From the NCBI GenBank assembly GCA_025351825.1, contig JANXVE010000165.1:1-43410 (forward strand): a stretch of 43,410 nucleotides of DNA, in the 5' to 3' direction. The notes below the pieces were generated by a model. That model was not told the origin of the DNA, did not search any database, and saw nothing but the letters and a program-made list of their open reading frames with translations. The translations under genes and the position numbers were made by a program. This document shows, piece after piece, positions 4,131 to 39,769 of the stretch. Source of the DNA: Chamaesiphon sp. 341R_metabat_111 (lineage in GTDB: Bacteria; Cyanobacteriota; Cyanobacteriia; Cyanobacteriales; Chamaesiphonaceae). Within the stretch, counting starts at the first letter, position 1; the number at the start of each line of letters is the position of its first letter.

Positions 4131-4209
4131 CTTTAGGCTTTGGGCTTTAGGATTGGGATATTAGATCGACCGATCCCTAAAGCCTAATCTCTAAAGCCTA
4201 AAGCCCAAT
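4131..4209. repeat. CTAAAGCCTAA-type repeat cluster, imperfect inverted repeat
   Basis: Copies of CTAAAGCC/GGCTTTAG occur in both orientations around a centre near 4166, giving an imperfect inverted repeat. The same unit (CCTAAAGCCTAATCCCTAAAGCC) recurs at 11430-11459 and 38376-38421. It lies between two minus-strand genes. Confidence 0.6.
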
Positions 4210-7037: not shown

Positions 7038-7059
7038 ATGTTTGAGTTGATGCGTGGAT

Positions 7060-7275
7060 ATTTACCCCACCCTAGCCCTCCCCTTGTAAAGGGGAGGGGA
7101 CAAGAGTCCCAGTTTTTAAAGGGAAATTCTTTCCGTATATGTAAGTTGAATATAGTCAACAATAACCTAGCTCCTCCCCTTAGAAAGGGGAGGTTGGGTG
7201 GGGTATGGATCTACGCATCATCTCAAAGACACTTGTGTATACACGGCAGCCCTTATAAAGGGGAGGGAGCCGGAT
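7060..7275. repeat. Cluster of CCTCCCCTT/AAGGGGAGG hairpin repeats
   Basis: Three hairpin-like units built on CCCTCCCCTT-n-AAGGGGAGGG occur at 7076-7098, about 7173-7193 and about 7252-7268. They fill most of the 349-bp gap between the cbb3 operon and the USP gene. An open frame through them is repeat-encoded, rich in Pro and Lys-Gly, and not a believable gene. A separate small palindrome (GTAGGGTGGGCAATGCCCACC) follows at 7290-7310. No clear terminator for the cbb3 operon is distinguishable from the repeats. Confidence 0.75.
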
Positions 7276-11167: not shown

Positions 11168-11429
11168 GGCGAACTCTCCTAAACAAATAAATCTGGCGGT
11201 GGAACTGGGAATCTAGTAGTGCTGTAGACAGTAACTAGGTTATCTTTCCCAAAATTAACTAGAAGGGATCGGTTTAGTTGAGGAATTTCATGTAAGCAGC
11301 CAATATTTGAATTACTCGATCGATATTTACGCAACGGCGATCGTGTAGCCTATATAACTATAATACCCGTTTGCTCGTCTCTTTGCTTAATAAGTTGCGA
11401 CCTATTAACCTAAATTGCCTTAATTCCCA

Positions 11430-11459
11430 ACACCTAAAGCCTAATCCCTAAAGCCTAAA
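11430..11459. repeat. CCTAAAGCCTAATCC repeat directly upstream of the epimerase gene
   Basis: Two tandem CCTAAAGCCTAA units end 4 nt before the ATG at 11463. They belong to the family also at 4131-4209 and 38376-38421. They occupy the place where a ribosome binding site would be, and none is apparent. Confidence 0.6.
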
Positions 11460-11462
11460 CTT

Positions 11463-12335
11463 ATGTTTACCATCACCAAACAACCTCAAACCGAACCTGT
11501 GTATATCCTCAACGACACAGACACCAAGAGTTCTTTAACTATTTATCCCGATCGCGGCGGCATTGCAACGAGCTGGAAAGTCAACGATCGAGAGTTGATG
11601 TACCTGGATGTCGATCGATTTAATGAAGATCCAAGTCTCAGTGTACGCGGTGGTTTCCCGATTCTATTTCCGATTTGTGGGAACTTGCCTGACAATGCTT
11701 ATGCTGTTGACGGTAAATCGTACTCACTCAAGCAGCATGGTTTTGGGCGCGAATTACCTTGGACGGTTAGCCACCAATCCACCACCACTGATGCTAGTCT
11801 AACCATCACACTGACTAGTAACGAAGCTACCCGTGCCGTCTACCCGTTTGATTTTAGCGTCAGCTTTACCTATCGCCTCGCTGGTGGTCAATTAACGATC
11901 GATCAAACATACACCAACAAATCTACCACCCCCATGCCGTTTAGTAGTGGATTGCATCCCTACTTCCTCGCCCCAGCCAAAGATAGCCTGACGTTTGAGA
12001 TTCCCTCAGCCAGCTATACCGAGAAAAACACAGGCGTAACTCATGCCTTTGCAGGGAAATTTGACTTTAGCCAAGCCGAAATCGATGCTGCCTTTACCAC
12101 CGTCACTGGTACCGTCGCCACCGTTAAAGATGCCAGCCAAAATCTTACGCTCACCATGACATCGAGCGAAAATTATCGGACGATCGTGTTTTGGACTGTG
12201 GCAGACAAAAATTTCTACTGTCTCGAACCTTGGACAGGTCCCCGCAATAGCTTGAACACAGGTACAGATCTACTCCATGTCGCCCCAGGTGAAACTCTCA
12301 GCACCACTGTTACCTTTGCTGCCAAGTTTAATTAA
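11463..12335 (+). CDS. Aldose 1-epimerase family protein (galactose/hexose-6-phosphate mutarotase-like)
   Basis: This 290-residue protein has a beta-sandwich mutarotase sequence. Family features are RGGFPILFPICG (about 62-73), KQHGFGR with a His (about 89-95), GLHPYF with the catalytic His (about 163-168), and the catalytic Glu in CLEPWTG (about 257-263). It interconverts alpha and beta anomers of free or phosphorylated hexoses. Length and the RGG-PILFP motif are closest to the YeaD/hexose-6-phosphate epimerase branch, but substrate cannot be fixed from sequence. No signal peptide, so cytoplasmic. It is followed by tRNA-Lys and fba. Confidence 0.85.
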   Translation: MFTITKQPQTEPVYILNDTDTKSSLTIYPDRGGIATSWKVNDRELMYLDVDRFNEDPSLSVRGGFPILFPICGNLPDNAYAVDGKSYSLKQHGFGRELPWTVSHQSTTTDASLTITLTSNEATRAVYPFDFSVSFTYRLAGGQLTIDQTYTNKSTTPMPFSSGLHPYFLAPAKDSLTFEIPSASYTEKNTGVTHAFAGKFDFSQAEIDAAFTTVTGTVATVKDASQNLTLTMTSSENYRTIVFWTVADKNFYCLEPWTGPRNSLNTGTDLLHVAPGETLSTTVTFAAKFN

Positions 12336-13868: not shown

Positions 13869-14000
13869 CTCACATCTTACGCCAGTATAGAAATATTAGT
13901 ACTAAGCATAGATCTAGGGTACCCACGAGGGGCACCCCTACAGGTAACTTGTAGGGGTGCCCTTAATGGGTACCCTAGATCTACGCTTGGTAATAGTGAG
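13869..14000. repeat. GGGTACCC/GGGCACCCC palindromic element, copy 1
   Basis: The core at 13911-13981 runs GATCTAGGGTACCC...GGGCACCCCTACA...TGTAGGGGTGCCC...GGGTACCCTAGATC, an almost perfect 71-bp palindrome. The left flank CTCACATCTTACGCCAGT (13869-13886) matches the terminal repeats of copies at 33226-33343 and 35432-35637; the right terminal repeat is degenerate here. A different repeat (14003-14033, TGTTGGGTTTC...CAACCCAACCTAC) directly follows. Together they fill the fba-pheT gap. Confidence 0.8.
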
Positions 14001-16600: not shown

Positions 16601-16656
16601 GGCAATTAAATAGGGTAGGGGTAATTCATGAATTACCCCTACCCTATTTAATTGCC
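16601..16656. repeat. 56-bp perfect palindrome
   Basis: From GGCAATTAAATAGGGTAGGGG to its exact complement CCCCTACCCTATTTAATTGCC, centred on AATTCATGAATT, the sequence is a perfect palindrome with no spacer. The arms continue imperfectly (GTGCA / TGCAC). It lies 18 nt after pheT and may act as its terminator, although no U-tract follows. Confidence 0.85.
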
Positions 16657-23938: not shown

Positions 23939-26521
23939 ATGTTAGAAGCATATCGCCAGCATACAGCCGATCGAGCCGCCTTGGGCATTCCCCCATTACC
24001 CCTCGATGCCGAACAAACCAGTGCATTGTGCGAACTATTGAAAAATCCCCCCCCAGGTGAAGCAGCCAATTTACTGGCATTATTGCGAGACAGGGTTCCA
24101 CCTGGAGTAGATCCGGCTGCTTATGTTAAGGCTGGCTTCCTGACTAGCATTACTACGGGTAAAGTTACTTGTCCGCTGATTAACAAGGTTGAGGCGATCG
24201 AATTATTAGGTACGATGTTAGGTGGTTATAACGTGCGATCGCTGATCGACTTGCTGCAATCGGAGAATACCGAACTCGCCACCGCCGCAGTCAAAGCACT
24301 GAGCAAAATCGTCCTCGTTTACGACGCATTTAACGATGTCTGGGAACTCTCTCAGACTAATCCCTATGCCAAACAGGTTATCGACTCCTGGGCGAATGCT
24401 GAATGGTTTACCTCGCGCCCGACATTACCCGAAACGATTACCGTTACTGTCTTTAAAGTTCCAGGCGAAACCAATACCGACGACTTATCCCCCGCAACTG
24501 AAGCTACCAGCCGCCCTGATATTCCCCTCCATGCTCTAGCGATGCTGGAAACCCGTCAGCCAGGGAGTTTAGAATCGATCGCTAAATTGAAGGAACTAGG
24601 ACATCCGATCGCCTATGTGGGCGACGTTATCGGTACGGGTTCCTCCCGCAAATCGGCGATTAATTCCGTCCTTTGGTACATTGGCGCAGATATTCCATGT
24701 GTCCCAAATAAGCGCACGGGCGGTTATATTTTGGGTAGTAAAATCGCGCCGATTTTCTTTAATACTGCCGAAGATTCGGGGAGTCTCCCGATCGAGTGTG
24801 ATATTACCATGCTCGAAACTGGTATGGTGATTACGATCCATCCCTACGCTGGCAAAATTACCAACGCAGCAGGCGAAACCATCTCCACCTTCAACCTCAA
24901 ACCCGACACTATCCTCGATGAAGTTCGCGCTGGCGGTAGAATCCCGCTCCTGATCGGGCGAACCCTCACCGACAAAACCCGCATCGCCTTGGGATTACCC
25001 CCCAGCACCATCTTTACCCGCCCCACTCAACCCACAGATACAGGCAAAGGCTACACCCTCGCCCAAAAAATGGTCGGTAAAGCCTGCGGATTACCTGGCG
25101 TGCGCCCTGGCGTGCCCTGCGAACCATTAATCACCACCGTTGGTTCCCAAGATACCACGGGGCCGATGACTCGCGACGAACTCAAAGAACTCGCCTGTCT
25201 CGGTTTCAGTGCCGATTTAGTGATGCAGAGCTTCTGTCACACCGCCGCCTACCCCAAACCAGTAGACATCCTCACCCACCAAGACTTACCCGACTTCTTC
25301 GCCCAACGCGGCGGCGTAGCCCTCCGCCCTGGCGATGGCATCATCCACTCCTGGCTAAATCGGATGCTCCTCCCCGATACCGTCGGCACGGGCGGCGACT
25401 CCCACACCCGCTTCCCCCTGGGCATTTCCTTCCCCGCAGGCTCCGGTTTAGTCGCCTTCGCCGCCGCTCTGGGTGCGATGCCATTAGATATGCCCGAATC
25501 TGTCTTAGTGTGCTTCACAGGCGAACTCCAGCCAGGAGTCACCCTCCGCGATGTCGTCAATGCGATTCCCTACGTCGCCATGCAAAAAGGCTTGCTCACC
25601 AACGACAAACAAAACAAGCAAAACGTCTTCTCTGGGCGGATTATGGAAATCGAAGGCTTACCAGATCTCAAAGTCGAACAAGCCTTTGAACTCACCGACG
25701 CAACCGCCGAACGTTCCTGCGCTGGCTCCACCATTAAACTCAGCATAGCCACCGTCACCGAATATATCCGCTCCAACGTCGCCCTCCTCAAAAATATGGT
25801 CGCACGCGGTTACGGCGATGCCCGCACCATTTTACGCCGCGTCGCTCAGATGGAAGCTTGGCTGGCTAATCCCATCCTGATGTCCGCCGATGCTGATGCC
25901 GAATACGCCGAAATTATCGAGATCGATCTCAATACTATTACAGAACCGATCGTCGCCGCCCCCAACGATCCTGATAACATCAAACTCCTGAGCGAAGTCG
26001 CAGGCGATAAAATCGATGAAGTCTTCGTCGGCTCCTGCATGACAAATATCGGACACTACCGCGCCACTGCCAAAGTCCTCGACGGCGAACCCGCAGTCAC
26101 CACTCAGCTATGGATTTGTCCCCCCACCCGCATGGATGAGAGCCAACTCAAAGCCGAAGGCATGTATGCCATCTTCGATGCCGCTGGCGCACGGACGGAA
26201 ATGCCAGGGTGCAGTCTCTGTATGGGCAATCAAGCCCGCACTGCTGATAACGCCACGGTGTTCTCGACATCCACCCGCAATTTCAATAACCGGATGGGTA
26301 AAGGTGCCCAAGTCTATCTCGGTTCGGCAGAATTAGCAGCAGTTTGTTCGCTGTTGGGACGGATTCCGACAGTGCCGGAATATCTGGATTTGATGAGTAA
26401 GAAAATCAACCCGTTTGCGGGGGATCTGTATCGTTATCTCAATTTTGATGAGATTGCTGGATTTGAAGATGAGGGGCGCATTGTATCGGTTGATGATGTG
26501 AGAAAGCTAGCCGAAGTCTAA
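23939..26521 (+). CDS. acnB: Aconitate hydratase B
   Basis: An 860-residue AcnB. N-terminal HEAT-like domain (about 1-160), then the swivel domain (about 170-370, with FKVPGETNTDDLSPA and GTGSSRKSAINS), and the catalytic domains. Cluster cysteines are in the final third: SCMTNIGHYRA (about 700) and CSLCMGNQA (about 759-767), plus FCHTAAYPK (about 437). It interconverts citrate and isocitrate via a [4Fe-4S] cluster; many AcnB enzymes also hydrate 2-methylaconitate. In cyanobacteria AcnB feeds isocitrate dehydrogenase and thus 2-oxoglutarate for nitrogen assimilation. The ATG yields the usual start MLEAYRQH. Confidence 0.97.
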   Translation: MLEAYRQHTADRAALGIPPLPLDAEQTSALCELLKNPPPGEAANLLALLRDRVPPGVDPAAYVKAGFLTSITTGKVTCPLINKVEAIELLGTMLGGYNVRSLIDLLQSENTELATAAVKALSKIVLVYDAFNDVWELSQTNPYAKQVIDSWANAEWFTSRPTLPETITVTVFKVPGETNTDDLSPATEATSRPDIPLHALAMLETRQPGSLESIAKLKELGHPIAYVGDVIGTGSSRKSAINSVLWYIGADIPCVPNKRTGGYILGSKIAPIFFNTAEDSGSLPIECDITMLETGMVITIHPYAGKITNAAGETISTFNLKPDTILDEVRAGGRIPLLIGRTLTDKTRIALGLPPSTIFTRPTQPTDTGKGYTLAQKMVGKACGLPGVRPGVPCEPLITTVGSQDTTGPMTRDELKELACLGFSADLVMQSFCHTAAYPKPVDILTHQDLPDFFAQRGGVALRPGDGIIHSWLNRMLLPDTVGTGGDSHTRFPLGISFPAGSGLVAFAAALGAMPLDMPESVLVCFTGELQPGVTLRDVVNAIPYVAMQKGLLTNDKQNKQNVFSGRIMEIEGLPDLKVEQAFELTDATAERSCAGSTIKLSIATVTEYIRSNVALLKNMVARGYGDARTILRRVAQMEAWLANPILMSADADAEYAEIIEIDLNTITEPIVAAPNDPDNIKLLSEVAGDKIDEVFVGSCMTNIGHYRATAKVLDGEPAVTTQLWICPPTRMDESQLKAEGMYAIFDAAGARTEMPGCSLCMGNQARTADNATVFSTSTRNFNNRMGKGAQVYLGSAELAAVCSLLGRIPTVPEYLDLMSKKINPFAGDLYRYLNFDEIAGFEDEGRIVSVDDVRKLAEV

Positions 26522-26535
26522 AAAACATCGCATGG

Positions 26536-26809
26536 AAAATCCCCTCCTCGGAGGGGTGCCCGAAGGGCGGGGCGGGTTGGATCTGCGCTAATTACTAGTT
26601 CTCGATCGATCGCGGGTACACTAAACCTGTACTTAGATGATTCGATCGATGTCAGAACCGAAATTAGATGATTGCGATCGATCTCAGCGGTTAGAATTGG
26701 GGGATTCGATCGAAAGTATGCCGCCTAATCCCAAACATTCGGGTTTTGTGAGTGCGATCAGAGATCTACCCACCCCGCCCGTTGGGCACCCCTCCGAGGA
26801 GGGGATTTC
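26536..26809. repeat. MITE-like element with about 48-bp terminal inverted repeats, copy 1
   Basis: The left end (26537-26584) AAATCCCCTCCTCGGAGGGG...GGCGGGGCGGG...GGATCT is the near-exact complement of the right end (26762-26808) AGATCT...CCCACCCCGCCC...CCCCTCCGAGGAGGGGATTT. Each end is itself a smaller hairpin (CCCCTCC-n-GGAGGGG). The element encodes the start and about the first 54 codons of the DUF559 gene in its right half. A second copy is at 28713-28947. Confidence 0.8.
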
Positions 26810-27182
26810 TCGGAGGGAGATTATTGGGTATGAGGGGTATTTGAAGGAGTTGGCGCGGAAGTTACGGCAGAATATGACTTTGGGTGAGGTGTTGTTGTGG
26901 CAACGCTTGAAGCGGAAGCAGATGCGGGGTTATGATTTTGACAGGCAACGACCGATCGATAGATATATTGTCGATTTTTATTGCAAGGATTTGAAGCTGG
27001 CTATTGAAATTGATGGTAGCAGTCATGATGGCGAAGAGGCAAAGATTAATGATGATATTAGACAGGAACGTTTAGAATCTCTGGGTGTGAGATTTTTAAG
27101 ATTTATGGATGCTGATGTGAAGCGGAATATGGAAATGGTAGTGGATTCGATCGAGCTTTGGATTGATGAATTGAGTCTGTGA
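26649..27182 (+). CDS. DUF559 family (Vsr-like) endonuclease-domain protein with repeat-encoded N-terminus
   Basis: From the ATG at 26649 (MSEPKLDD) the protein has 177 residues. The DUF559 domain covers about 65-177: ELARKLRQNMTLGEVLLWQRL, YDFDRQRPIDRYIVDFYC with the nuclease-type Asp, and LAIEIDGSSHD with the Glu of the D-(E/D)xK-like fold. The N-terminal 60 residues are encoded by the MITE-like element, including DLPTPPVGHPSEEG from its right inverted repeat. The second copy of the element has the same MSE...DSI start but no nuclease. Such proteins are related to Vsr and restriction enzymes; biological role unknown. A start at 26637 is also possible. Confidence 0.8.
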   Translation: MSEPKLDDCDRSQRLELGDSIESMPPNPKHSGFVSAIRDLPTPPVGHPSEEGISRREIIGYEGYLKELARKLRQNMTLGEVLLWQRLKRKQMRGYDFDRQRPIDRYIVDFYCKDLKLAIEIDGSSHDGEEAKINDDIRQERLESLGVRFLRFMDADVKRNMEMVVDSIELWIDELSL

Positions 27183-27289
27183 GTAGTCTCTGATCTAGGA
27201 AACTAAATTTGCGTAATTAGGCTGAAGCATAAAAAGCTTATACTATTTTGTACTCAATAATGTCTGAGTTCAAATTGTGAGTATACACC

Positions 27290-27502
27290 ATGAAAGATCG
27301 CGAAAAAGAAGCTGACCAAGAACGCGCCGCAGCTATACTTGCAGCAGCAGGTGGAGCCGCTGTTGGTGCTGGAGTTTCTACTGTAGGGGGAATGGGATTA
27401 GCAGTAGGTGGTACTGCTGTAGCTATTGGTATGGCTCCCCTTGCTGCTGCGGGAGCAGTAGTTGGATTAGCTGGTTACGCTTTAAGCAAATTGTTCAAGT
27501 AA
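27290..27502 (+). CDS. Small glycine-zipper-like hydrophobic protein
   Basis: A 70-residue protein with a charged N-terminus (MKDREKEADQERAAA) and a long Gly/Ala-rich hydrophobic segment (about 15-64: GGAAVGAGVSTVGGMGLAVGG, MAPLAAAGAVVGLAG) ending LSKLFK. G-x-x-x-G spacing suggests a pair of packed membrane helices, as in glycine-zipper peptides and some bacteriocin-like or pore-forming proteins. No known family recognised. It lies between the DUF559 and HNH genes, has its own terminator and may be independent of them. Confidence 0.55.
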   Translation: MKDREKEADQERAAAILAAAGGAAVGAGVSTVGGMGLAVGGTAVAIGMAPLAAAGAVVGLAGYALSKLFK

Positions 27503-27558
27503 GCAAAGGATATTTTAAATATCTTAAATTGATACACTTTTAGTTTGTATATTCTGCT

Positions 27559-27586
27559 AAATCTCCCTTCAAAAGGGAGATTTTAG
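27559..27586 (+). terminator. Terminator after the glycine-zipper gene
   Basis: AAATCTCCCTT-CAA-AAGGGAGATTT is an 11-bp perfect stem ending in TTTT, 56 nt past the stop at 27502. Confidence 0.7.
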
Positions 27587-27612
27587 TGTAAGTATTTTTT
27601 AAATGTACTCTT

Positions 27613-27969
27613 ATGCCTAAAGATAAACCAAACCCGTTTCAAAAATTAGTACGGGGATGGATTCGAGATAGAATCAATGAAATAAATCAAAAAACACCAA
27701 AGCCTCTTAAAGTAACCAAAATATCTGAACCTAAATCTCGATCTATAATAGAAGACAAGCCTTCACGTTATATTCCTCTATCGATTCGGGTTGATGTTTT
27801 TAGTCGAGATGGTTATAAGTGCGTATTTTGTGGACGTAATTCTAAGGAAGTTACTTTAGAGATCGACTACATTATTCCATTTTCAGGGGGAGGAAGTAAT
27901 AAGAGTGATAATTTACAAACTCTGTGTTTTGACTGTAATCGAGGCAAAGGAGCCAGAAAATTGAAATAG
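27613..27969 (+). CDS. HNH-endonuclease-like protein with a Tyr in place of the catalytic His
   Basis: A 118-residue protein with a basic, disordered N-terminus (about 1-50) and an HNH domain (about 55-115). Zinc-binding pairs are Cys70-Cys73 (YKCVFCG) and Cys105-Cys108 (LCFDCN). The HNH signature reads LEIDYIIP (83-89), where the family normally has LEIDHIIP; the general-base His is Tyr86. Later motif residues (Asn100, Asn109) are kept. It may be an inactive nuclease or DNA-binding protein. It converges on the truncated kinase (ends 28003) within 33 nt. Confidence 0.75.
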   Translation: MPKDKPNPFQKLVRGWIRDRINEINQKTPKPLKVTKISEPKSRSIIEDKPSRYIPLSIRVDVFSRDGYKCVFCGRNSKEVTLEIDYIIPFSGGGSNKSDNLQTLCFDCNRGKGARKLK

Positions 27970-28002
27970 GACGTTTGCAATATTTATCGATCGAGTATTT
28001 AC

Positions 28003-28641
28003 CTAGTTTGTCATCATATGTTCCGAACTACCAATCGCCGTTCCGGTTTTAGCCAACATCGATTGAGTCGCCTGCTTCGCCGCACCAAAATCGACCAATA
28101 CCAAACCACCATCACTGCGCCGCCGAATGATATTGGCTGGTTTGATATCACGATGAATGACTGGTGGTGACTGATGGTGGAGGAAATCTAAGACTGGTAA
28201 TAACGACTCCAGTAACTCACGGATCTTGGTTTGGTTAAAAGTGCCTGCGGTGGCTAATTCCTGCTCCAAATCTTGCCCATCGATAAACTGTTGTACCAGG
28301 TATGGTTGACCATCAACATCAAAGTAGGCGAGGAGTTCGGGAATCTGGCCGTGATTGCCCAATGTCTCTAAATGTTGTGCCTCCTCGTAAAACAGCTTGA
28401 GGGCAATCTGTCTGGTATCGGGATCGTTGTTGTTAAATGCAAACTGTTTGATGACACACAACGGCTGACGGGGTTGGTCTTCATCCACTGCTTTGAAGGT
28501 TTTACCAAACCCACCTTGTCCTAATAGCTTCAGAGCACGATAACGATCTTTGAGCAGGATCTTTGCCCCACAGGACATACAGAAATTGGTAGAGGGGCTA
28601 TTCTCTGGAGCGGGACAGGCGGGATTGATGCAGTAGCTCAT
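28003..28641 (-). pseudogene. Truncated serine/threonine protein kinase
   Basis: The 212-residue frame begins with a four-Cys zinc ribbon (Cys4, 9, 21, 24) and a kinase domain, as in the cyanobacterial family of zinc-ribbon Ser/Thr kinases. It has the Gly-rich loop LGQGGFGKTF (about 40-49), the lysine in CVIKQF, the catalytic loop HRDIKPANI (about 163-171) and DFGAAK (about 184-189). It then ends at GTAIGSSEHMMTN where the family reads GTxIGSxEYMAPEQ, so the activation segment and entire C-lobe are missing. Nothing kinase-like continues in the 33 nt before the HNH gene. The protein, if made, is unlikely to be an active kinase. Confidence 0.8.
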
Positions 28642-28712
28642 AGCTGGGGCGGCTGAGGTGGGAATATTCGTTACTTACAGTTAGTATTCCCATCCCCCAC
28701 CCACAATTCAAT
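28642..28712. other. Short spacer upstream of the kinase remnant
   Basis: This spacer lies between the kinase start codon and the second MITE-like element. It presumably held the kinase promoter. Nothing distinctive is seen in it. Confidence 0.3.
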
Positions 28713-28947
28713 AAAATCCCCTCCACGGAGGGGTGCCTGAAAGGCGGGGTGGGTCAGATCTTCGCTACTCACTTACCAATTCTCGATCGCAAGCACACTC
28801 AATCCATTATTTGACTCTACTTGAAATGTCAGAATTAGAAGACTCGATCGATAGCACTCCATTCAATTTCAACCATTCGGAGGGAGAGAGTGTAAGTGGA
28901 GATCTAACCCACCCCGCTCTACGGGCACCCCTCCGTGGAGGGGATTT
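28713..28947. repeat. MITE-like element, copy 2, without nuclease
   Basis: Left end AAATCCCCTCCACGGAGGGG...GGCGGGGTGGGTCAGATCT and right end AGATCT...CCCACCCCGC...GCACCCCTCCGTGGAGGGGATTT pair as about 48-bp inverted repeats, closely matching copy 1 at 26536-26809. It contains ATGTCAGAATTAGAAGACTCGATC (28826 on), the counterpart of the DUF559 gene start, but a 1-nt difference in the right end shifts frame and no nuclease follows. The remnant frame runs to 28999. Same orientation as copy 1. Confidence 0.8.
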
Positions 28948-29133
28948 ACATGCTAGAGTCGATCGTATGATGACTTTACTAAACATCATTTTTTGGTGAG
29001 ATTCAATTAAAGACTATGAGGAAATCGATCGATTGCCGCTTAACCCTTTTCCAACGGTAGATCGAGCATCTAGGAGAGCAAGTAATGTTTGATATCTAGC
29101 TCTTTACGCAAGGACAAAATAGAATTAGATTGC
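28948..29133. other. Spacer after MITE copy 2
   Basis: This stretch between the element and the gene ending at 29134 has several CGATCG sites. There is no gene or clear terminator. Confidence 0.3.
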
Positions 29134-33225: not shown

Positions 33226-33343
33226 CAGCGTAGATTTAGGGTACCCATTAAGGGCACCCCTACACAAGTTACCTGTAGGGGTGCCCTTAATGGGTACGGG
33301 TTTTAGCAGTAATGATAAATATCGACTGGCGCAAGATGTAAGC
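33226..33343. repeat. GGGTACCC/GGGCACCCC palindromic element, copy 2, abutting a start codon
   Basis: The core reads TAGGGTACCC...GGGCACCCCTACA / TGTAGGGGTGCCC...GGGTAC, followed by a right terminal repeat ACTGGCGCAAGATGTAAG (33326-33343, matching copies 1 and 3). It starts 12 nt after the Mur ligase stop and ends directly at the ATG (33344) of the BCS1-like gene, so it forms that gene's whole 5' region. Confidence 0.85.
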
Positions 33344-35431: not shown

Positions 35432-35637
35432 CTCACATCTTGCACCAGTTTGAACATAATAGTGATAATCGTAGATCCAGGGTACCCATGAAGGGCACCC
35501 CTACACAATTAACCTGTAGGGGTGCCCTGTCTTGTCGTTTTCTTATTCGGGGGGAACCCCCGAATAAAAACGCCGCTTCATGGGTACCCGAAGATCTCTG
35601 CTTTTACTAGTCTTTATGTATTGGTGCAAGATGTGAG
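35432..35637. repeat. GGGTACCC/GGGCACCCC palindromic element, copy 3, with nested insertion
   Basis: Perfect 16-bp terminal inverted repeats CTCACATCTTGCACCA (35432-35447) and TGGTGCAAGATGTGAG (35622-35637) bound the core GGGTACCCATGAAGGGCACCCCTACA / TGTAGGGGTGCCCT...TCATGGGTACCC. The right arm is interrupted by about 50 bp containing its own palindrome (TATTCGGGGG / CCCCCGAATA, near 35546-35567). The element starts 1 nt after the rca stop and ends 53 nt before cofG. Confidence 0.85.
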
Positions 35638-38229: not shown

Positions 38230-38375
38230 GAGGTAGAGGGTAGAGGTTAGAAATTAGAGAGTAGGTGTGGTTTGCAATGGATATATCGATCGACTATCAA
38301 TTACTCTTCAATATCCCTCTGACTCGCATTAAAGTCAATCCGAGCTGATTTTTGCCTATGCCATCTTTGCCACAG

Positions 38376-38421
38376 GCTAATCCCTAAAGCCTAATTCCTA
38401 AAGCCCAAAGCCTAATCCCTA
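38376..38421. repeat. CTAAAGCCTAAT repeat, third locus
   Basis: Tandem and near-tandem CCTAAAGCC(T/C)AAT units lie just past the stop of the HtrA gene, in the same family as 4131-4209 and 11430-11459. Confidence 0.6.
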
Positions 38422-38425
38422 CCCT

Positions 38426-39769
38426 CTACTCTCTCACTGCTGCCAGTGGCGGTGCGGCAACTGGTGTAACATTCAGGCTGACGGTTTGACCGTTGCGGCG
38501 TACTTGGATTTGAACGCTGCTGCCGATCTTGGTTGTTTCGACTACTTGCTGCACTTCGTTAGAGTTTTGGACTTTTTTGCCGTTGACGGTTTGAATGATA
38601 TCGCCAGATTTCATCCCAGCATTAGCGGCGGGTGAACTTTTGACGACGCGGGCGATTAGGGTGCCTTTATCGACATCGATTTTGAGATTGGCTGTGGGAT
38701 CGCTGTTGATTTCTTCTTTGAGTTGAGGTGTGAGATTAATCATTTGGATGCCGAGGAAGGGGTGCTCTACCTTGCCTGTGGCGATTAATTGATTGGCAAT
38801 CCGCATGGCGGTATTGATTGGGATCGCAAAACCTAAGCCTTGAGTTCCGCGCAGGATGGCGGTATTCATGCCGATGGCTTGTCCCATTGCATTGAGGAGG
38901 GGGCCGCCGGAGTTGCCTGGATTGATGGCAGCGTCGGTTTGAATATAGTTGACTCGTTTGTCAGCAGCACCGATCTCCGCGCTGGTTCTGCCTGTCGCGC
39001 TGATGATTCCGGCGGTGACGGTATTGTCCAATCCTAGTGGATTGCCGATCGCAATCGCCCATTCGCCTGGTTTAATTCGATCGGAATTACCGATTTGAAT
39101 GGTGGGGAGATTTTTTTGGTCGATCTCAATTACCGCAACATCAGTGACTAGATCGATTCCCTTTACTTTACCAGGGATCGTCCGACCATCTTTGAGGGTG
39201 ACGGTAACTTTGGTTGCACCAGCGACTACGTGAGCATTAGTGATGATTTGACCATTATTATTGATGATAAAGCCTGAGCCAGTGCCTTGTTTGACTTCTC
39301 GATCGGCAGATCGACCTCTTTGAGGCATCCGATCTCCAAAAAACCGTCTGAAGAAGGGATCTTCAAAATCATCTTCCCCACTTGAACGGGCAACTACGGT
39401 GGTAGAAGCATTGATTCTGACGACTGCTGGCCCAACTTTATCGACAACTTGGGTGATAAAATTGGTATTGACTCCAGCTAAAACACTGCCACTATTAGCT
39501 ATTTGAGCGGTTGCGGGCGCGATATTCGCCGGAAGCTGTTCTTTAGCAGCAAGATAGCCAAATGAACAGCTAGCAATCGTACTTAAGAATAGCAGCGAGA
39601 TATATTTGCTACCTTGGCGCAATGTTTTAGTACCAGTACGGGAGCGTGGTAATGGATCGATCGATCGATCGACCACCGCAGGTTGAGGATCGTGAGTGGT
39701 TGACTGATTCTGTTCTGTTAGACTAGGATCTGACGATCCGAGCGGGAAATCTTTCTGGGGTTCTGACAT
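38426..39769 (-). CDS. HtrA-family serine protease (Deg/Hho type) with PDZ domain
   Basis: 447 residues from the ATG at 39767-39769; an in-frame GTG 9 nt upstream is less likely. The N-terminal 50 residues are polar, a membrane anchor or signal follows (about 57-75, SKYISLLFLSTIASCSFGYLA), then the trypsin-like domain with triad His180 (ITNAHVV), Asp210 (TDVAVIEID) and Ser287 (GNSGGPL), and a PDZ domain (about 330-435, LGIQMINLTP...). It degrades or refolds damaged envelope and thylakoid-lumen proteins under stress. The paralogue (HhoA, HhoB or HtrA) cannot be told from one window. A monocistronic unit. Confidence 0.92.
   Translation of the reverse strand: MSEPQKDFPLGSSDPSLTEQNQSTTHDPQPAVVDRSIDPLPRSRTGTKTLRQGSKYISLLFLSTIASCSFGYLAAKEQLPANIAPATAQIANSGSVLAGVNTNFITQVVDKVGPAVVRINASTTVVARSSGEDDFEDPFFRRFFGDRMPQRGRSADREVKQGTGSGFIINNNGQIITNAHVVAGATKVTVTLKDGRTIPGKVKGIDLVTDVAVIEIDQKNLPTIQIGNSDRIKPGEWAIAIGNPLGLDNTVTAGIISATGRTSAEIGAADKRVNYIQTDAAINPGNSGGPLLNAMGQAIGMNTAILRGTQGLGFAIPINTAMRIANQLIATGKVEHPFLGIQMINLTPQLKEEINSDPTANLKIDVDKGTLIARVVKSSPAANAGMKSGDIIQTVNGKKVQNSNEVQQVVETTKIGSSVQIQVRRNGQTVSLNVTPVAAPPLAAVRE

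Follow-up and report, generated by a model that had tools for sequence, protein, structure and literature searches.

The window analysed here is a stretch of 43,410 nt from Chamaesiphon sp. 341R_metabat_111 (GenBank assembly GCA_025351825.1, contig JANXVE010000165.1). An inverted-repeat element at 26536-26809 bears the start of a DUF559 gene that runs from 26649 to 27182 on the plus strand, with 177 codons and a stop, and a gap of 14 nt separates the element from the stop codon of the preceding gene (23939-26521), which we take to be the aconitase gene acnB. The arms of the element are 93% complementary over 41 nt (26537-26577 and 26768-26808). The left arm (26536-26590, plus strand), recognised from its repeat family and from predicted single-strand folding, consists of the hairpin CCCCTC-CTCG-GAGGGG, a second small hairpin and a G-rich tail, GGATCTGCGCT. 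The right arm (26755-26809, minus strand), delimited by arm comparison, predicted folding and alignment, is inverted and is translated in frame as the N-terminus of the protein. Both arms are predicted to fold as single strands into the same hairpin plus the smaller second one, and another copy of the element in the window has a different loop. The folding energy of the window arms alone is unexceptional against shuffled sequences (z -0.8 to -1.5), and one stretch from Dyella reaches z -3.5.

An open frame extends from ATG 26637 to 27182. Alignment with two genomes of the same genus, G004 and G006, places the conserved start at ATG 26649, 12 nt further in, and the upstream ATG is conserved in neither of them. 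The translated right arm, DLPTPPVGHPSEEG, continues in frame into a DUF559 domain (Pfam PF04480, E 2e-31) that scores 108.5 bits against a curated cut-off of 20.6, which confirms the proposal of the first-pass annotation that the start codon and the N-terminal codons come from the inverted-repeat element and are in frame with DUF559. The indels between ATG 26649 and the domain, read off an alignment of three units, are of 39, 6, 12 and 3 nt, all multiples of three. This N-terminal extension is under weak constraint, with a dN/dS of 0.49 against G004 and 0.36 against G006. The nuclease domain itself (26841-27155, plus strand, delimited by profile, fold and structure model) is under strong purifying selection, with values of 0.047 against G004 and 0.125 against a G006 copy that contains an internal stop codon. 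No repeat was found downstream of the window's DUF559 gene; with both repeats upstream, the window unit is an atypical variant that may no longer move. A small HNH endonuclease gene (27613-27969) lies 3' of the DUF559 gene, in a region where the sequence following DUF559 differs in G004 and G006, and beyond it is a Ser/Thr kinase gene of 212 codons (28003-28641), seemingly shortened relative to the matching stretch in G006. A reading as an RNA family was dropped, there being no Rfam match in 26400-29100 at E up to 1, as was a reading as a defence system, for which the PADLOC matches were weak (the best being mREase_II at 1.5e-7).

In the AlphaFold model of the protein the nuclease domain is confident and the N-terminal extension is of low confidence. 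Foldseek matched it to 3hrl (E 6e-8), 3r3p (E 6.5e-5) and Vsr (1vsr, E 0.027), with mitoribosomal proteins ranked in between. Gonococcal NGO0050, itself a DUF559 protein by profile, and the homing endonuclease I-Bth0305I match best in structure; PvuRts1I follows at E 0.003. Together with a profile match to 3r3p (E 3e-5), these comparisons place the protein in the EDxHD/Vsr-like nuclease fold. The Pfam matches are to DUF559, MTES_1575 and DUF2726 only, with no HUH (Y1) nuclease domain. The accessible text of a 2005 study has YcjD among earlier-identified putative PD-(D/E)XK members with a profile link to Vsr (PMC1189080), and that of a 2022 study assigns a DUF559 gene to the EDxHD homing endonuclease family (PMC9403480).

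Repeat matches and comparison with G006 identify a second copy of the element at 28713-28947 (plus strand), in which both arms and the start region are present and the nuclease is absent. It had been described as keeping the same start; the ATG is indeed shared, but the frame is broken by one extra base in the right arm. G006 has a corresponding copy upstream of the same kinase-type gene, in which the right arm is followed by about ten codons resembling the DUF559 start (YLRKLRDNMT versus YLKELARKLRQNMT), with the gene missing thereafter. Since this counterpart keeps DUF559-start-like codons, the nuclease-less copy in the window is probably a relic left by deletion, as opposed to a separate MITE. 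The arms recur elsewhere in the genome (54 arms at 39 sites, of which 25 are single, 13 are close pairs and one is a triple), and the interior of the element is matched solely in the second window copy. Terminal inverted repeats of the MITE kind are thus present in this genome and many copies with a common interior are not, and because the interior is not shared among the copies we reject MITE as a general label for what had been called a MITE-like element. Dispersed arms, single and paired, are the pattern of REP and BIME sequences. The palindromic repeats at the 39 sites have this trait of REP/RAYT systems and behave like REP/BIME sequences, for which MITE is not the best word. The window also holds another dispersed hairpin repeat (TGTAGGGGTGCCC...GGGTACCCTAGATCTACGCT) in three copies, one of them a long inverted pair (13897-13995, 33227-33297 and 35467-35528), short repeats of the type CCTAAAGCCTAATC with a spacing of 14 nt (4173-4209, 11416-11466 and 38366-38430), and a perfect 28-nt palindrome at 16601-16656 (GGCAATTAAATAGGGTAGGGGTAATTCA plus its reverse complement).

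The genome has three DUF559 genes in all, each adjoining a different palindromic repeat. Immediately upstream of the C74 gene are GATCCCCC...CCCCCTT-AAGGGGG repeats, a type with few further matches in the genome. The C185 gene contains one internal stop and has CCTCCCCTTATAAAGGGGAGG-type repeats on both flanks; this type is dispersed through the genome, and repeat matches locate one pair of it in the window at 7052-7216 (7052-7105 plus 7171-7216, G000:C79). The repeat on one side of the C185 gene is interrupted (L033, 1175-1440) by a possible further small element whose ends are inverted (CTACCGTGTATACACAAG); similar ends occur near DUF559 in L061.

That other DUF559 genes might have no repeat ends had been raised as the point on which a link between nuclease and repeat would fail, and we found the opposite. 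Our general sample was the best 80 of 517 confirmed loci found with a consensus DUF559 protein, from Proteobacteria, Chloroflexi, Cyanobacteria and others. C-first hairpins, defined by an all-pyrimidine, C-rich first arm and counted within 400 nt of the domain, occur at 71 of these 80 loci (66 upstream, 65 downstream), versus one of the 80 for composition-matched purine-first (G-first) control hairpins. Hairpin density in this sample of the best 80 of 517 is 5.0 per kb within 200 nt versus 0.14 per kb at 1-4 kb, the latter figure including a rise to 0.4-0.7 per kb at 2.8-3.2 kb. The rise is mostly due to homologous Dyella, Rhodanobacter and Frateuria loci, which account for 30 of the 37 hairpins at 2.6-3.4 kb. 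Collapsing the best 80 of 517 into 51 groups, one per genus or single MAG, leaves 42 with such hairpins. Of the nine misses eight are Chloroflexi, and the four of these that we read (L097, L123, L147 and L169) have hairpins that fall outside our definition, with mixed arms or a long loop. Hairpin repeats lie within 400 nt of 32 of 42 DUF559 matches among cyanobacterial relatives, and all 18 loci of one Pseudomonas genus are positive (18 downstream, 3 upstream). As for controls, one of 11 aconitase-family genes without DUF559 was positive, as were three of 19 lysA genes without DUF559, each with a lone hairpin, and 17 of 139 points at a distance of 2.6 kb within the same loci.

Among 16 loci that we inspected, the gene often begins just inside the left repeat, and translation of its C-terminus often continues into the right one. 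Fusion of the repeat to the N-terminus, as seen in the window, did not hold up as a general trait. The common proteobacterial unit is CCCTCTCCC-loop-GGGAGAGGG-nnn-GGGTGAGGGG, the gene, and then the reverse complement. Long direct duplications flank two of 125 loci, L078 (159 nt, 96%) and L147 (100 nt, 93%); any flanking direct match at the gene is seen in 10 of 125, the other eight being 36-46 nt long and several of them pieces of the repeat. Control offsets gave duplications of 36-221 nt with 75-85% identity in 2 of 81 and 2 of 85 cases. With two of 125 loci, a long target-site duplication is rejected as a general mark, and short ones would be below the resolution of the comparison.

Many of these repeats carry the exact TMECO motif, which lies within 400 nt in 36 of the 80 loci (best 80 of 517), versus none of the 80 for the reversed motif. 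The G-rich tail faces the gene in 52 of 62 TMECO copies from the same best 80 of 517 (24 of the 31 upstream copies and 28 of the 31 that lie downstream). The window arms, built as a hairpin plus a second hairpin, do not match the TMECO/PIT motif CCCTCNCCCN3-6GGGNGAGGGN3GGGNGAGGG. In its accessible text, a 2015 study of the TMECO/PIT repeats reports that they form stable triplexes in vitro and are associated with local genome instability and variable sites, mentions no mobility gene near them and states their origin as open; it also places all TMECO repeats of E. coli K-12 between genes, with TMECO no. 9 at 1,351,204-1,351,239 in Table 1 (PMC4666352). The DUF559 gene of E. coli K-12, ycjD, lies at 1,351,407-1,351,760, 167 nt from TMECO no. 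9, and its final codons consist of a decayed repeat. Dyella flava has 111 copies of dispersed palindromic repeats, many of them in +/- pairs.

The ycjD region is present at a cover of at least 80% in 3362 of 5426 E. coli genomes. The fabI-sapF interval comes in two forms, one with ycjD and triplex repeats after fabI and the other with a TetR/RND efflux operon there (L096; L177-L179, L182, L183). Because the operon replaces ycjD there, we regard the interval as a swap of content, and with the TetR/efflux operon following fabI in five ycjD-minus records, ycjD was rejected as a clean case of an empty site; three further ycjD-minus E. coli records were covered for 300 nt outward.

Repeat and nuclease also go together at the level of whole genomes. 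In one Pseudomonas genus of 18 genomes, TMECO is found in all 13 that have a DUF559 match (15-58 copies) and in one of the five that do not (0, 0, 0, 0 and 13 copies). Among 229 genomes drawn evenly from the class of this genus, many of them probably incomplete, TMECO is present in 31 of the 54 with a strong DUF559 match versus 18 of the other 175 (odds ratio 11.8, p 6e-12, kinship ignored); counting all DUF559 matches, it is present in 33 of 77 versus 16 of 152 (p 5e-8, kinship again ignored). A logistic regression on the 229 genomes, likewise ignoring kinship, gave an LR of 42.3 for DUF559, 3.7 for Y1 transposases and 1.6 for genome size. A reversed-pattern control gave no copy per genome, and once a single copy. 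There are counter-examples in both directions: G106, G104, G222 and G152 have 43, 27, 17 and 16 TMECO copies with no DUF559 match, and 23 of the 54 strong-DUF559 genomes are without the exact motif. At 20 DUF559 loci from 19 of those 23 genomes, C-first hairpins lie within 300 nt in 16, and purine-first hairpins are near five of the same 20 under a looser hairpin definition. The repeats of L264 and L266 recall the window arms, with CCCCTCC...GGAGGGG followed by GTGGC or TGGCG.

Between genomes, repeat similarity rises with nuclease identity (Spearman 0.374, 0 of 2000 permutations; 26 loci and 315 pairs, kinship ignored), from a mean of 0.27-0.28 below 50% nuclease identity to 0.69 above 70%. 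Where a paralogue exists in the same genome, the repeat is closer to that of the nearest nuclease elsewhere at 10 of 14 loci, including L061, for which the difference is slight (0.62 versus 0.61); L042 favours neither side, and three loci (L044, L045 and L080) contradict a cognate pairing. Some pairs are a single locus by descent, as at the acnB site, and this inflates the figure. In these sequence comparisons the repeat type follows the nuclease clade.

Sites with and without the unit can be compared directly. In the Dyella flava family both flanks of the lysA locus were located in 28 of 30 fetched loci. DUF559 follows lysA in 11 of these 28, and in ten of the 11 a triplex-type repeat can be recognised; 15 hold just 8-240 nt at this position, and the remaining two are longer without DUF559. 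Within the genus of the window, the unit is absent after acnB in G003, where the exact junction could not be drawn because the right flanks differ in all four genomes.

A further kind of site lies inside proteins. Five of the 42 fetched cyanobacterial matches are in open frames of 975-1400 residues, and by Pfam all five host frames are restriction-modification-type methyltransferases. The host frame of L041 aligns to MmeI (5hr4) over residues 121-470 and 475-902, between which MmeI has four residues; the intervening 183 residues of L041 consist of translated repeat, DUF559 and translated repeat, all in frame. At the protein level L041 is an occupied site set against an unoccupied relative. L039 shows a two-stretch match to a solved methyltransferase and to Type_ISP_C, and L043 and L046 have translated repeats on both sides of the DUF559 domain. 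On a plasmid of Synechocystis sp. B12 (L218, 816-3261), a DUF1156 methylase gene seems to be split, with a DUF559 gene between its parts, and on pAQ6 (L217) DUF559 adjoins a DUF1156 gene. The original suggestion that nuclease and repeat form one unit gains support from the co-occurrence in the 229 genomes, the presence and absence after lysA and the in-frame case in an MmeI-like protein.

The arrangement is found in several phyla with clade-matched repeats, repeat and nuclease co-occur, and whole units are present or absent at homologous sites; one protein site is occupied in frame, and the window nuclease has a recognisable nuclease fold and is under purifying selection. The reading that we favour, with a probability of roughly 0.6, is that a stand-alone DUF559 gene makes up, with the inverted palindromic repeats that surround it, one small selfish unit, REP/RAYT-like and built with an unrelated nuclease. 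The layout of such a unit, of about 0.5 kb, would be a hairpin with its G-rich tail, the nuclease gene, and then the reversed tail and hairpin. The Vsr-like/EDxHD nuclease would recognise its cognate repeat, probably as a hairpin or a folded single strand at the replication fork, and would cut either there or at a target. Host repair would then place copies of the repeats elsewhere, either alone or together with the gene, and single repeats and inverted pairs would be non-autonomous or decayed copies. Movement, the cutting of the repeats by the nuclease, the copying step and the direction of cause are the parts of this scheme that we infer. The broader proposition seems to us evenly balanced, namely that DUF559 units are a widespread and previously unrecognised minimal selfish DNA, a Vsr-like nuclease of about 110-180 residues with a cognate hairpin pair, which needs no DDE, HUH, tyrosine or serine recombinase of its own to move and is the source of the TMECO/PIT repeats and their cyanobacterial counterparts.

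The repeats could instead be landing sites made by something else, with a free-standing DUF559 homing endonuclease cutting gene-less repeat pairs and being copied into them by break repair. DUF559 is related to an EDxHD homing endonuclease by profile and fold and in the accessible text of PMC9403480, genes are few (up to four matches per genome) and repeats many, and the gene often lies between inverted repeats of which gene-less pairs are common. We nevertheless consider this explanation unlikely: TMECO co-occurs far more strongly with DUF559 than with Y1 (RAYT-type) transposases, the repeat type follows the nuclease clade, and the MmeI-like case holds repeats and gene together where MmeI has neither. 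Distinctly improbable is a non-selfish alternative, in which DUF559 is a host repair nuclease, Vsr-like and acting on mismatches or particular structures, and the repeats are regulatory or substrate sequences for genome maintenance. The presence of DUF559 is patchy (the ycjD region in 3362 of 5426 E. coli genomes, a strong match in 54 of 229 genomes), copies with internal stops occur, units are located inside other proteins, and the three DUF559 genes of a single genome adjoin unlike repeats; these observations fit poorly with such a role, even though the nuclease domain is under strong purifying selection and the TMECO repeats, whose triplexes are stable in vitro, mark variable sites (PMC4666352, accessible text). 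Also in its favour is Caulobacter VsrA, which has a DUF559 domain; its accessible text ties this protein experimentally to a DNA-damage response in cells that lack a methylase and proposes a mismatch-repair nuclease (PMC12907096). That the hairpins are ordinary terminators or common G+C-rich repeats lying by chance in the gaps around a small gene is scarcely credible, despite the many such repeats in this genome and the intergenic position of all E. coli K-12 TMECO repeats in the accessible text of PMC4666352, and was rejected on the G-first control (1 of 80, best 80 of 517) and on the 9 to 16% of positives among other genes and distant points, with the inverted layout with tails towards the gene, the reversed-pattern control (0 per genome, once 1) and the in-frame position inside a protein also against it.

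The selfish-unit reading invites comparison with several known systems. The DUF559 units are like REP/BIME sequences and their RAYT (TnpA-REP) enzymes in that a nuclease gene adjoins, or is enclosed by, palindromic repeats that are scattered both as single copies and as inverted pairs. On the RAYT side, too, enzyme and repeat appear to be matched. However, RAYTs are HUH (Y1) enzymes, whereas DUF559 has the PD-(D/E)XK Vsr-like fold and no HUH domain, and because the defining HUH enzyme is missing the DUF559 units are set apart from REP/RAYT proper. MITEs and the Rickettsia palindromic elements are known for terminal inverted repeats and for translated palindromes inside proteins. The DUF559 units share these features and differ in that their arms have no common interior in this genome and there is no general long target-site duplication; no parent transposase was found for the repeats. 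I-Bth0305I has a related catalytic domain by profile and fold, and its PDB entry describes a mobile intron protein, whereas DUF559 stands alone between repeats. Vsr itself is a weak match in fold, and Caulobacter VsrA shares the DUF559 domain, with no repeat bracket described in the accessible text (PMC12907096). The link to TMECO/PIT rests on the exact motif near 36 of 80 DUF559 loci (best 80 of 517) and on the position of ycjD beside TMECO no. 9; the accessible text of PMC4666352 has no mobility gene nearby, whereas here a nuclease gene is linked to the repeats and variant repeats have the equivalent role at other loci. Among the literature matches listed, with subscription journals mostly outside the coverage, no paper was found that links DUF559 to repeats.

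An enzyme and its repeats acting as one tiny selfish element could explain the origin of a class of bacterial repeats that has long been known. With a nuclease gene that adjoins or separates TMECO repeats, predicts them and exists in E. coli K-12 as ycjD, the question of where the repeats come from becomes directly testable. If our reading is true, there would be a role for a family that Pfam still names as being of unknown function, and a REP-like system would have arisen with an enzyme unrelated to the RAYTs.
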